From the NCBI GenBank assembly GCA_019359675.1, contig JAHHGX010000004.1:1-64000 (forward strand): DNA of 64,000 bases, given 5' to 3'. The notes under the pieces are model-generated. The model made no database searches. It saw nothing but the letters and a program-made list of their open reading frames with translations, and was not told where the DNA came from. A program made the position numbers and the translations under genes. Every line of letters starts with the position of its first letter. Position 1 is the first letter of the stretch. The stretch comes from Calothrix sp. FI2-JRJ7 (GTDB lineage: Bacteria; Cyanobacteriota; Cyanobacteriia; Cyanobacteriales; Nostocaceae). This document shows positions 19,905 through 63,087 of the stretch, one piece after another.

Positions 19905-20045
19905 GTCGAAGTGGGTAGCTTAATCCTGATTCGTTTGCATGAGTCGGGAACGGAGGAACCATTGTTTGGGGCTAATATATATAGAGGCACCTTCCAGCCT
20001 TCGCCCGTCAGCTAACTCCGTAAGCCGTGGAAGGAACTCCCTCAT
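19905..20045 (+). ncRNA. c-di-AMP riboswitch (ydaO/yuaA type)
   Basis: Conserved blocks of the ydaO/yuaA aptamer appear in order: GGGAACGGAGGAACCA (19,945-19,960), TTGGGGCTAAT (19,966-19,976) and CCGTCAGCTAACTCCGTAAGC (20,005 on; it closely parallels the B. subtilis ydaO block). CCTTCCA and TGGAAGG form the closing stem around the last block. The universal stress protein gene follows on the same strand about 130 bp downstream. Binding of cyclic di-AMP normally turns such genes off. Boundaries are approximate, and I see no clear intrinsic terminator. The minus-strand frame over it (19,920-20,135) is a shadow. Confidence 0.82.
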
Positions 20046-40870: not shown

Positions 40871-41074
40871 TTACTTGCCGACAGTGCGCCAGTCAACCAT
40901 CACATCTTGAATAACGATGGATTTGTTATAAAGTTGCAGGATAATCAGCAAGAAAACGAAAAAGAGTCCCATAAAAACAGCCATAAGGGGAGTGGTTCCC
41001 CAACCTGGAGCAACTTTACCGTATTCAGAATTTAAAGGTCTGAGGATATCTCCCAATCGTGTCCGTTGTGCCAT
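40871..41074 (-). CDS. psbH: Photosystem II protein PsbH
   Basis: Single-pass PSII subunit of 67 residues that stabilises the reaction centre and CP47. [20 protein letters not shown] is the stromal N-terminus, followed by the helix [20 protein letters not shown] and the lumenal VDWRTVGK. psbN is divergent next door, the standard arrangement. A strong terminator follows. Confidence 0.98.
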
Positions 41075-59896: not shown

Positions 59897-60664
59897 ATGC
59901 TAGCTAAAAGGATTCTACCGTGTCTGGATGTCAAAGCGGGACGAGTTGTGAAAGGAGTTAACTTTGTCAACCTCAAAGATGCGGGTGACCCCGTGGAACT
60001 AGCGAAGGTTTACAACGAGGCAGGCGCCGATGAGTTAGTGTTTCTCGATATTACAGCGACTCATGAAGATAGAGGCACAATTATTGATGTTGTTTACCGA
60101 ACCGCAGAGCAGGTATTTATTCCGTTAACTGTCGGTGGTGGTATTCAATCCTTAGAAAATGTTAAAAATTTGTTACGAGCAGGGGCGGATAAGGTTAGTA
60201 TTAATTCTGCGGCAGTACGCGACCCTGATTTTATCAATCGTGCTAGTGACCGTTTCGGTAATCAGTGCATAGTAGTTGCAATCGATGCCCGAAGGAGGCA
60301 AAACTCAGAAAACCCAGGTTGGGATGTTTATGTGAGGGGTGGCAGAGAAAACACAGGTATTGATGCTCTTACTTGGGCACAAGAACTTGAAAAACGCGGC
60401 GCCGGGGAATTATTAATTACAAGTATGGACGCTGATGGCACTCAAGCCGGTTACGACTTAGAGCTTACCCGTGCTATCGCGACTAGAGTCCAAATTCCTG
60501 TTGTTGCCTCTGGTGGTGCCGGAACTTGCGAACACATCCACCAAGCACTAACCGAGGGTAAAGCCGAAGCTGCCTTACTAGCATCGCTTTTACATTACGG
60601 ACAACTAACTGTAAGCCAAATCAAAAATTATCTCAACGACAATAAAGTTCCCATCCGAATGTAG
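59897..60664 (+). CDS. hisF: Imidazole glycerol phosphate synthase subunit HisF
   Basis: Cyclase subunit of histidine biosynthesis, 255 residues. It is a half-barrel repeat protein with catalytic Asp11 ([14 protein letters not shown]) and Asp130 (VVAIDARRR), plus phosphate loops GGGIQS and ASGGAGT. It takes ammonia from HisH, which is not adjacent. It is divergent from ruvB. A TCTAACCA/TGGTTAGA hairpin at 60,688-60,711 may mark its 3' end. Confidence 0.98.
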
Positions 60665-60767
60665 TCCTGGTATCTTGCCTAAAATCTAACCACCACAGCG
60701 TGGTTAGAGACACTTATCAAAATTAGTGTTAAGCTTGATGAAGAAGAAATAACTTTTATTAAGAAAA

Positions 60768-60956
60768 ATGTTAATACCTATATTAATTTTTGATGTAGCG
60801 CTGGTTGCCTGGTCGCTACACCTTATGGAAAAAGCAGTAGAACACAAGGAATTCTCCCTAATGCTAGCTGGAGGGCTGGTAGCAATGGCTGCCGCAGGAA
60901 TGCTCGTTGTTTACTTCTTAATGGGTCACTGCATGACCTATCTGTTACAACTGTAA
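60768..60956 (+). CDS. Small two-helix membrane protein (62 aa)
   Basis: ATG at 60,768 with a weak purine-rich site. Two hydrophobic helices (IPILIFDVALVAWSLHLM and LMLAGGLVAMAAAGMLVVYFL) flank a short polar loop EKAVEHKEF. The family is unknown to me, but similar small proteins are annotated in cyanobacteria. It lies 103 bp after hisF on the same strand. Confidence 0.6.
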   Translation: MLIPILIFDVALVAWSLHLMEKAVEHKEFSLMLAGGLVAMAAAGMLVVYFLMGHCMTYLLQL

Positions 60957-61068
60957 ATGCGTAATCATATCTAAATATTCTTATACAAATATTTATTGTC
61001 AGTGCGATTAATTATTCTCATCAAACAAATAAGGTATCAACATAACTGAGATTTTAAGTCGCATTTTA

Positions 61069-61099
61069 TTGACATAAGAGCAAATATTTAAGGTATAAT
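61069..61099 (+). promoter_or_regulatory. Probable tRNA-Ala promoter
   Basis: -35 TTGACA (61,069-61,074) and -10 TATAAT (61,094-61,099) with a 19-bp spacer, ending 11 bp before the tRNA. The consensus boxes are perfect, although the spacing is 2 bp long. Confidence 0.75.
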
Positions 61100-61110
61100 G
61101 AGAAAATTAC

Positions 61111-61183
61111 GGGGTCATAGCTCAGTTGGTAGAGCGCTACAATGGCATTGTAGAGGTCAGCGGTTCGATCCCGCTTGGCTCCA
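61111..61183 (+). tRNA. tRNA-Ala (anticodon GGC)
   Basis: Complete 73-nt cloverleaf: acceptor GGGGTCA/TGGCTCC, D-stem GCTC/GAGC, anticodon stem CTACA/TGTAG with loop ATGGCAT, T-stem AGCGG/CCGCT and discriminator A. CCA is not encoded. The segment from the D-stem through the anticodon is copied exactly in the homing guide of the element that lies 2 bp downstream. This tRNA is therefore its attachment target. It is intact and should function. Confidence 0.97.
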
Positions 61184-61399
61184 CTTGTACTTTAAATAAT
61201 TATTGTCACTTTTAAAGAATTCTTGTCCAATTATTGCTAGCGTTGGCTCAAAAAGACGTAATAGCAAGAGTTTCAGGATTTGGATTATTTTTAAAGAATT
61301 CTTGTCCAGAGTTGAAACCAGTTTTAAAGAATTTTTGTCCAAAAAAGTATCGCTGATTCTATGTATGAAATTGAGTTTTGTGGATAACGTAAGCCAATA

Positions 61400-61426
61400 T
61401 AGAGAGGTAGCAATGCTACCTCTCTA
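61400..61426. repeat. GTAGAGA-type palindrome inside the mini-CAST
   Basis: TAGAGAGGTAGCA and TGCTACCTCTCTA pair around a single A. It belongs to the same covarying family as the copies at 2,434, 23,786, 36,265, 49,452 and 63,183, so the family also enters mobile DNA. Confidence 0.85.
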
Positions 61427-61543
61427 CATCTAAAATTCATACTTGGAGTCAACAAGGCGATTCAGATAATTAGTTTGTAAAGCAAGTAAACACTAAAGCA
61501 ATCTTACCGATTAGGAGTCAGAACAAATGTACTTTAATATAAA

Positions 61544-61577
61544 AATGCCATTGTAGCGCTCCTTTCAAATCACCCCC
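61544..61577 (-). ncRNA. Delocalised homing crRNA of the CAST
   Basis: On the minus strand a diverged repeat 3' end, GGGGGTGATTTGAAAG (61,562-61,577), is followed by GAGCGCTACAATGGCATT (61,544-61,561). Those 18 nt are identical to tRNA-Ala at 61,132-61,149, where GTA lies directly 5' of the protospacer. GTN is the known PAM of type V-K. The match then ends. This is how V-K transposons encode a guide for their attachment site, apart from the main array. Confidence 0.9.
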
Positions 61578-61633
61578 ATATATAATTGTATGGCAGGATA
61601 ACATAAGTTGATTCAGGATTTTTCGCTTTCAAC

Positions 61634-61811
61634 TTTTCAACCCACCACCAACTGACAGGGCTATTGAAACCAAAAGAGGATTGGAATTATTGGGTTGACA
61701 AAGCATCTTACAACCCACCACCAACTGACAGGGCTATTGAAACTCTAAAATGCTATGGTTGCATATAGTTTAAATTAACCTTTCAACCCACCACCAACTG
61801 ACAGGGCTATT
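61634..61811 (-). CRISPR. CRISPR array, three repeats and two 36-nt spacers (type V-K-like)
   Basis: Read on the minus strand the 37-nt repeat starts GTTTCAATAGCCCTGTCAG and ends TGGTGGTGGGTTGAAAG. Copies lie at 61,634-61,670, 61,707-61,743 and 61,780-61,811 with an exact 73-nt period. Spacers are 61,671-61,706 and 61,744-61,779. The first repeat in transcription order (61,780-61,811) is missing its 5' five bases and runs directly into the transposon end, so the leader, tracrRNA and cas12k side was deleted there. The GTGGGTTGAAAG ending matches known V-K repeats. Confidence 0.92.
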
Positions 61812-62073
61812 TGCACTTTAAATAATTATTGTCGCGAATTAAATAATTATTTAAAGTACAACTTGTACTAGTATGGATATTTGGTTTTTGAATGAGTTAA
61901 CACCCCTCAATAAGACTAATGTTCCATATGATTAATCTTGATGAGAGCAAGATAAAGAAGCGTCTGTAAGCAAAATTAGTCATAGAATGAATAAGTGATT
62001 TTCTACAAACAAAATCTAGTTATTCAAAATCACCCATCCGTTACATGCGTTTACCATCCGTTGCCAGGTTGCC

Positions 62074-62433
62074 CTAAATCAAATTTTGTTTAGTTTTAAC
62101 ACGCTTATATAGTTCCTCTATCGTTTCAATAAATGAATTATCCTTATGCCAAAAAGCAGGAAAATCACCTTGCTTTTTAATTACAATCGCAGAAACACTG
62201 CTGCTTGCTTTAATGTCTATGGTTTGGAGTAATCTCTTGGCGCCTAACCAAAATTCCCGAATGCTTGGTTTTTCATTAATTACTTGCTTTTCTAATTTGG
62301 TATAAAGAGAAGCTGAAGCTTCTACTACGAAGTCTTTCACATTTAATTCTTCGGACAAAACTTTTCCTAAAGGTGTTTTAGCTAGCTTTTGTTGAAGTTC
62401 TATTTTTAACAACCCTCGCAATTGAAATAACAA
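62074..62433 (-). CDS. Unknown protein, possibly N-terminally truncated
   Basis: The 119 residues (ELQQKLAKTPLGKVLSEEL..., FWLGAKRLLQTIDIKASSS, DFPAFWHKDNSFIETIEELY) look like a real helical protein, but I do not recognise the family. The frame stays open upstream to about 62,494 (LTVEYLVASQLDENPFLLFQ) without an ATG, so the native 5' end may have been lost. It lies next to the mini-CAST, outside its ends. Confidence 0.45.
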   Translation of the reverse strand: MLFQLRGLLKIELQQKLAKTPLGKVLSEELNVKDFVVEASASLYTKLEKQVINEKPSIREFWLGAKRLLQTIDIKASSSVSAIVIKKQGDFPAFWHKDNSFIETIEELYKRVKTKQNLI

Positions 62434-62542
62434 AAATGGATTTTCGTCTAGTTGAGAAGCAACTAAATATTCAACTGTTAAATAATATAAATTTATTTAA
62501 ATATGGCGCCTGTTCCTAGTATGTATAGGACATTTGAATTAT

Positions 62543-62569
62543 TGTCATGCTGAGTGCAGCATGACAAGC
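62543..62569. repeat. TGTCATGCTGAG palindrome
   Basis: TTGTCATGCTGAG pairs with the following TGCAGCATGACAA. The half-site TGTCATGCTGAGG also forms the direct repeats at 44,450 and 44,500. Confidence 0.8.
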
Positions 62570-62571
62570 AT

Positions 62572-63087
62572 TTATATAACTTGCTGGTTAAAGTTAAGTT
62601 TAACGAAAGTTTCAAATGCGAAGTAAATCAAAAGGTACCAAGGCATTAACTCTAATTGCAGTCCGTAAACTTGCAGTTGTATAAGGCCTAGTGCGAATAA
62701 TCCAAGCGGTAATACAAATCGTAAGTCCACAAGACCGTTGGTTAATTGGCGAATTTCTTGATTCAAATTATAAATAGCGCTGGGTAAGTCTGAACCTTCA
62801 TTCTCGCCGTTCGCTTGTACTATTTCACTGGCGCCAGTAACATCAGCAAAAACAATGCCCAGGTTTTTCATAATATCCTTAATAGCCTCAAGGGCTTGTT
62901 CATGGGTATCGTGATGAACAAGGATGCTGCCTGTTTTATGGTTGTATTCAACGCTGTTAATAAAGCGTGGCGCCTGTAAACTTTTACTAATGCGTTCCAT
63001 TTCTTCCTGGTTACGACGTTTATCTGATACTCTTAATCTTGTTCTACCAGAAGTGGTGCTGACTACTTGTGTGTGATGTGTAGACAT
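62572..63087 (-). CDS. HMA2-domain membrane protein
   Basis: A 171-residue protein. The first 85 residues form an HMA-like ferredoxin fold (TSGRTRLRVSDKRRN and SVEYNHKTGSILVHHDTHEQAL) without the CxxC metal site, as in the HMA2 family. The C-terminal part has two hydrophobic segments (FVLPLGLFALGLIQL and MPWYLLIYFAFETFV). It probably sits in the inner membrane. A metal- or stress-related role is possible but not shown. Confidence 0.75.
   Translation of the reverse strand: MSTHHTQVVSTTSGRTRLRVSDKRRNQEEMERISKSLQAPRFINSVEYNHKTGSILVHHDTHEQALEAIKDIMKNLGIVFADVTGASEIVQANGENEGSDLPSAIYNLNQEIRQLTNGLVDLRFVLPLGLFALGLIQLQVYGLQLELMPWYLLIYFAFETFVKLNFNQQVI

Follow-up and report, generated by a model that had tools for sequence, protein, structure and literature searches.

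The window analysed here, a 64,000-nt stretch of the Calothrix sp. FI2-JRJ7 genome, contains a 675-bp element (positions 61186-61860) that descends from a type V-K CAST as a gene-free derivative and starts directly 3' of the tRNA-Ala(GGC) gene. Its left end, its layout and the match of its guide to the tRNA gene bear out the preliminary description, in which a gene-less V-K derivative that keeps its array and guide had been proposed beside tRNA-Ala. The features of the element and its attachment site are listed in Table 1.

Table 1. Features of the 675-bp element and its attachment site, in window coordinates
Feature	Position	Strand	Basis
tRNA-Ala (GGC), attachment site	61111..61184	+	ARAGORN; Rfam tRNA
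PAM GGTA (GTN type), directly 5' of protospacer	61128..61131	+	Read from sequence; GTN PAM as in the available part of PMC9938897
Homing-guide protospacer within tRNA gene	61132..61149	+	18/18 inverted match to 61544-61561
ACT, last 3 bases of expected 5-bp target duplication CCACT	61183..61185	+	Flanks; empty sites
Left (tRNA-proximal) end: terminal TGTACTTTAAATAATTATTGTC and three TTTTAAAGAATT-TTGTCC sites	61186..61345	+	Aligned over 160 bp to 24 related left ends
Palindrome of dispersed-repeat kind, internal to element	61397..61429		Self-complementary; similar stretches in many family genomes (among matches listed)
Homing (anchor) guide GAGCGCTACAATGGCATT	61544..61561	-	Match to tRNA-Ala; controls
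Truncated repeat R* (GGGGGTGATTTGAAAG), precedes guide	61562..61577	-	Alignment with R* of 21 other guides
CRISPR repeat 3 (last), 37 nt	61634..61670	-	Repeat search
Spacer 2, 36 nt	61671..61706	-	Read from sequence
CRISPR repeat 2, 37 nt	61707..61743	-	Repeat search
Spacer 1, 36 nt	61744..61779	-	Read from sequence
CRISPR repeat 1, without its outer 5 bases at junction 61811/61812	61780..61811	-	Repeat search; end alignment
49-bp double-ended unit, far end	61812..61860		Inverted-repeat search; layout as in free 48-bp units
ACT, right copy of partial target duplication	61861..61863	+	Flanks

The element, with a G+C content of 34%, starts with TGTACTTTAAATAATTATTGTC at 61186 and finishes with the inverted TGTACTTTAAATAATTATT at 61860. 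The inverted ends (61185-61204 against 61842-61861) agree at 20/20 bases including one flanking base, 19 of which lie within the element. This 19-base stretch is the longest exact inverted run between the outer 160 and the outer 100 bases, compared to at most 15 among 1000 dinucleotide-shuffled sequences, which confirms the 19-bp inverted terminal repeats reported earlier. The several internal sites noted there also proved real: in addition to the terminal site, the left end has three TTTTAAAGAATT-TTGTCC sites (61207-61230, 61286-61309 and 61319-61342), giving four transposase-type sites, all on the tRNA side. Reading the minus strand from the far end inward, the array (61811-61634, three repeats and two spacers) is followed by R* (61577-61562) and the guide (61561-61544).

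No protein gene was found within these boundaries, in agreement with the preliminary description. The longest stop-free stretch has 79 codons, and three ORFs of 76, 60 and 42 aa had no match in Pfam at a cut-off of E = 1. A tblastn search of window positions 60000-63000 with CAST proteins gave no match, and cas12k, tnsB, tnsC and tniQ were not found in the element. Judged by position, there is no room for a tracrRNA on the usual side, since repeat 1 abuts the 49-bp end unit.

The 18-base run of the guide against the tRNA gene exceeds the longest runs in 1000 shuffles (11) and in 1000 random 675-bp pieces of the window (10); together with the 37-nt repeats, this exact match substantiates the V-K-type array and homing guide recognised earlier. 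At 32 of 35 loci, chosen by us, the distance from the protospacer start to the element is 54 bp, the window included; the remaining loci have 53, 55 and 57 bp. Of the 35 loci, 27 have a recognisable guide; compared over 17 bases, the window guide has a score of 17 with its own tRNA, and no higher than 16 with any of the other 26. Among 388 sampled genomes of the order, the guide 18-mer is present in five (the window genome, the congener G003, G168, G169 and G392), always in tRNA-Ala(GGC). A second occurrence is confined to the window genome, where it is the guide itself, and no other copy of the window guide was found in these 388 genomes. The congeners G001, G002 and G006, which lie outside this sample, likewise have the 18-mer in the tRNA. 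The guide is therefore exactly suited to the tRNA allele of this host lineage.

The repeats at 61634, 61707 and 61780 end in GGTGGGTTGAAAG with at most one change each, compared to the repeats of complete V-K elements. Outside the element, only the 3' part of this repeat was recovered; the exact repeat was not found, nor was an exact 29-nt portion of it in the genome contigs searched. Spacer 1 had no match in phage records, the sole collection tried for it, and spacer 2 no convincing match in plasmid records, likewise the sole collection tried; its match to a Vibrio plasmid (E = 0.3) is weak and was taken as chance. Alignment of the family guides showed a TATAAT-like box conserved shortly upstream of R*, as if the guide had a promoter of its own, which reads TACAAT in the window. 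A promoter scan found four candidates against 3.3 expected, the conserved box not among them, and a guide-own promoter was not retained as a candidate.

Similarity search of 217 family genomes revealed that the left end matches sequences over 160 bp, with a best identity of 80% among the matches listed. In an alignment with 24 related left ends, some of which lie within decayed elements and not all of which are accompanied by cas12k, the four sites are preserved, as is most of the stretch GTTGAAACCAGTTTTAAAGAATT. The order tRNA-Ala, left end, guide, array, cas12k, tniQ, tnsC, tnsB was found in five genomes, all with matches to every CAST protein; both ends were seen in four of them (G140, where the element has 20.0 kb, G131, G122 and G208), the far end of the fifth (G160) not being seen. 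In addition, tnsB is fragmented in G020, where neither tnsC nor tniQ was matched, and in G022 the contig that carries cas12k stops early.

We follow the end names of PMC9938897, in which the left end is tRNA-proximal and tnsB is at the right end. In its available text, V-K CASTs have the array near the left end in reverse orientation, 37-nt repeats, R* with a ~17-nt anchor spacer, a GTN PAM and an end 46-82 nt from the PAM. The 675-bp element shares with them the left end by the tRNA with several TnsB-type sites, the reversed array, the repeat length, and R* with a tRNA-matching anchor spacer and a GTN PAM (GGTA), its own end lying 54 nt away. Compared to these systems as described in that text, it lacks tnsB, tnsC, tniQ, cas12k, tracrRNA and cargo, and at the far side it terminates in a 49-bp double end. 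Altogether, the proposed descent stands, because related V-K CASTs share the left end and the layout and the corresponding site of the sampled congeners is empty.

The far end has a different architecture. Normal tnsB-side ends of the clade carry two tandem sites, whereas the last 49 bp of the element contain two back-to-back ends (61812-61830 and 61842-61860). Free units of 48 bp have the same layout; they lie beside tRNA-Ala in G210 and G211, and in G200 one adjoins another end. Such 48-bp units, with two CAST-type ends back to back, were located at L094:1977-2024, L099:1981-2028 and L067:2195-2242; two of the three lie directly beside tRNA-Ala(CGC) and have different far flanks, and the third adjoins another element's end. 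Of the two segments previously taken as the ends, 61,186-61,345 holds as the left one, whereas 61,811-61,860 does not, as 61811 belongs to the repeat and 61812-61860 is a palindromic double end. A normal CAST with a simple internal deletion would not yield a double-ended far end, and the single internal deletion put forward in the preliminary description is therefore doubtful, since the element has no normal tnsB-side end. An older double-ended scar at this tRNA may now serve as the far end, or the far end may have been rearranged. In G192 (L242:1266-1914), an element end directly adjoins a shortened CRISPR repeat beside an array, a guide and a left end at tRNA-Pro; this junction is much like that of the window, and a recurrent deletion mechanism may be at work.

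Strains with an empty tRNA-Ala site, as envisaged in the preliminary description, do exist: the tRNA lacks the element in 6/6 sampled congeners, which suggests that the element arrived after the split from them. In G001, G002 and G006, both flanks match (left 94-96%, right 86-87%), the match of the right one beginning at 62026 or 62074. The 165 bases directly after the element have no match in these three genomes, and the flanks of the empty site are separated by ~750 bp of other DNA in G001, 75 in G002 and 23 in G006. In G003, G004 and G005, the left flank alone was matched at the site. A dispersed repeat of ~76 bp with copies in congeneric genomes occupies window positions 61991-62066.

CAST insertion duplicates 5 bp, according to the available text of PMC9527255. 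The flanks of the element in the window read CTCCACT on the left and ACTTGTACTAG on the right, the empty site of G002 reads CTCCACTTGTGC, and the duplication in the window amounts to ACT, three of the five expected bases (CCACT). Repeats of 5 bp were found at the same place in G122, G208, G020 and the 123-bp element of G106, and also in G112 (AAAGT); no target repeat was seen in G140, G131 and G155.

No cognate helper was found by Cas12k and TnsB searches of the own genome (8.66 Mb in 91 contigs, completeness 99.92), and the element is therefore probably silent at present. The sole Cas12k match (907 bits) lies on contig C73, which holds a near-complete V-K CAST of another clade (L027:17932 to L028:9785) with a tRNA-Val guide, eight repeats and a full-length Cas12k ORF. 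Its tnsB consists of two overlapping ORFs in different frames, the same two pieces being in one frame in G200 and G009. Over most of its length, the C73 Cas12k has 33-35% identity to the Cas12k proteins of the tRNA-Ala clade, with one part-match in G208 at 41.5%. The nearest TnsB of the genome to that of the tRNA-Ala clade is the split C73 one (44%), followed by a match at 26%. The preliminary description looked to the rest of the genome for a V-K CAST with the same ends and repeat; the lone C73 CAST has other ends and another repeat, and these differences, with the Cas12k and TnsB identities, led us to reject it as the direct parent. In the same region, L027:12068-15313 is an ORF of 1081 aa, whose product, judged by eye, we take to resemble GyrB with an intein-like insertion.

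The element is single-copy in its own genome, and among the matches listed for the 217 family genomes there is no second full-length one. Searches of phages and viral contigs, partly by exact pattern, gave no match to the element. Seven plasmid records match, covering 22-29% of the left end. The match in Trichormus plasmid C is close to a gene for a DDE-type integrase, and the annotation table lists no cas gene; short end matches alone are thus no proof of a V-K element. For the same reason, the ends-only elements of 48, 123, 325 and 344 bp are not counted as certain V-K elements. The 344-bp one (G019, L090:2036-2379) lies directly after a short cas12k fragment, and no tRNA was found in 4 kb.

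Beside tRNA-Ala, we found 53 distinct left ends among the loci examined, which derive from similarity matches and are not a random sample. At least 350 residues of Cas12k were found at 12 of the 53, but the DNA behind the left ends varies from 1.5 to 36 kb, so the absence of cas12k is not established for the short loci. Fourteen loci, partly picked by us for length, have at least 8 kb behind the left end; seven have Cas12k, and at the other seven it was not matched within the DNA searched (at most 22 kb). A guide was recognised by pattern at 26/53 loci, and a second inverted end lies within 1.5 kb at six (675, 520, 325, 123, 48 and 48 bp). Guide and array are both kept at two of the 53, the window element and a 520-bp derivative in G155 (L061:2251-2770). 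The latter has two unlike repeats and a guide that matches tRNA-Ala(CGC) at 16/18 bases; it gave no CAST protein match, and its longest stop-free stretch has 100 codons. In relatives, among them G104 and G106, its right flank is inverted and ~16-17 kb distant, and the locus probably underwent an inversion that broke at the far end of the mini-element. The one Cas12k of G155 scores 979 bits, compared to about 770-815 for the tRNA-Ala clade, and would belong to another clade by this score.

A further derivative, of another V-K clade, was found in G112 (L238:1704-3011). It is 1308 bp long, sits at tRNA-Arg(CCG) and has both ends, with AAAGT on either side. It contains three repeats, a guide whose first 17 bases match and a 29-residue cas12k fragment; by position, it would also hold the start of tnsB, for which tblastn gave no TnsB match. 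Pieces of this element share up to 95-98% identity with sequences of related genomes, which suggests a recent deletion. Of the 217 family genomes, 130 gave a Cas12k match at E <= 1e-20, G112 not among them. As the G155 and G112 derivatives both keep guide and array, a guide-plus-array derivative without intact CAST genes is a recurrent form. A second copy of the 675-bp element itself, of the kind that the preliminary description suggested looking for, was not found in the own genome.

We consider shrinkage in place after homing the most probable origin of the 675-bp element (about 60%) and prefer it over arrival as a mini-element. A V-K CAST of the tRNA-Ala-homing clade would have entered the lineage after its split from the sampled congeners, and its anchor crRNA would have guided it to tRNA-Ala(GGC), with insertion 54 bp from the protospacer start; the homing would thus have relied on the element's own guide. 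Later, the whole interval from the first CRISPR repeat to the far end, with tracrRNA, cas12k, cargo, tniQ, tnsC and tnsB, would have been lost. The array would thereby have become fused to the 49-bp double-ended unit, or would have come to terminate at it, so that the gene-free element remained. In principle, such a remnant could serve as both substrate and guide donor for cognate TnsB, TnsC, TniQ, Cas12k and tracrRNA in trans. Loss in place is favoured by the part-decayed elements, which are common at tRNA-Ala, by the presence of one copy, by the failure to find a helper and by the incomplete target duplication. Against it, a deletion would have to leave both outer ends untouched, which is a special result; yet the G155 and G112 derivatives show this outcome. 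The 123-bp ends-only and 1308-bp elements have intact 5-bp duplications, as if inserted in their present form, which is equally expected from a later internal deletion. Also against shrinkage, a full-length parent was not seen in seven congeneric genomes.

A possible but less likely origin is arrival in the present form, as the CAST counterpart of a MITE, for which a helper CAST would have supplied the proteins in trans and the element's own guide the target. The two outer ends, the four left-end sites, the guide and the PAM are all intact, the tRNA allele of the lineage is matched exactly by the guide, and the G155 and G112 derivatives have the same form with both ends. Moreover, laboratory CAST donors consist of ends and cargo, with the proteins supplied in trans. 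However, neither a second copy nor a second full-length family match was seen, the target duplication has three of five bases, and the far end, unlike a normal right end, has no second tandem site. A cognate helper was not seen in the same genome for any of the window, G155 and G112 derivatives: the Cas12k is of another clade in the window genome and, as its score suggests, in G155, and G112 has none at E <= 1e-20. It is improbable that array and guide were kept for another use, for example as guides for other V-K CASTs or to lure incoming CASTs to a harmless site. The undamaged guide and repeat core would fit such a use, as would the TACAAT at the place of the conserved box, which could allow transcription without the tracrRNA promoter; but the promoter scan was not above chance, the resident C73 CAST has a different repeat and a split tnsB, and recent insertion alone accounts for the undamaged state. 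AT-rich ends favour short inverted repeats, but an origin by chance or assembly artefact has a negligible probability, given the same form in two other genomes; chance alone is refuted by the shuffle and random-piece controls, the 160-bp left-end alignment and the exact guide spacing.

MITEs are short, gene-free, bounded by terminal inverted repeats and reliant on proteins in trans. The 675-bp element resembles them in all these respects, but differs from them in being single-copy, where several genomic copies define a MITE, in carrying a guide and a CRISPR array, and in having no same-end partner found in its genome. The available text of PMC11656645 describes CAST variants with a delocalised guide and no array; they share with our element a reduced guide cargo, whereas the latter keeps array and guide and loses all genes. 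The same text describes viral CRISPR mini-arrays in phages and archaeal viruses, which act in inter-virus competition with effectors in trans. Here too there are one or two spacers without cas genes and with effectors in trans, but the array of the 675-bp element lies between transposon ends.

Gene-free V-K derivatives were not described in the literature searched (titles and abstract starts), and the author of the preliminary description likewise knew of no such example; earlier work on CAST homing or spread may mention them. As far as the available texts describe them, one CAST survey was anchored on cas12k (118 systems; PMC9938897) and another started from tnsB (PMC8649781), and gene-free derivatives would be invisible to such surveys by design. 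V-K CASTs have no TnsA and no known resolvase, as stated in the available part of PMC11406308. We tentatively raise the possibility that cyanobacteria carry RNA-guided MITEs, that is, gene-free mini-CASTs of 0.5-1.3 kb with both ends, a homing guide and an array, which would parasitise in trans the proteins and tracrRNA of complete V-K CASTs and steer them by their own guides. If mobilisable, they would be RNA-guided transposons that hold guide and DNA substrate in less than 0.7 kb, and would amount to parasites of CASTs. Otherwise, these derivatives record how V-K CASTs decay at attachment sites. Either way, the question is open to existing CAST assays.

Elsewhere in the window, Rfam matches indicated a c-di-AMP riboswitch at 19907-20038 and a psbN 5'UTR RNA at 40973-41033.
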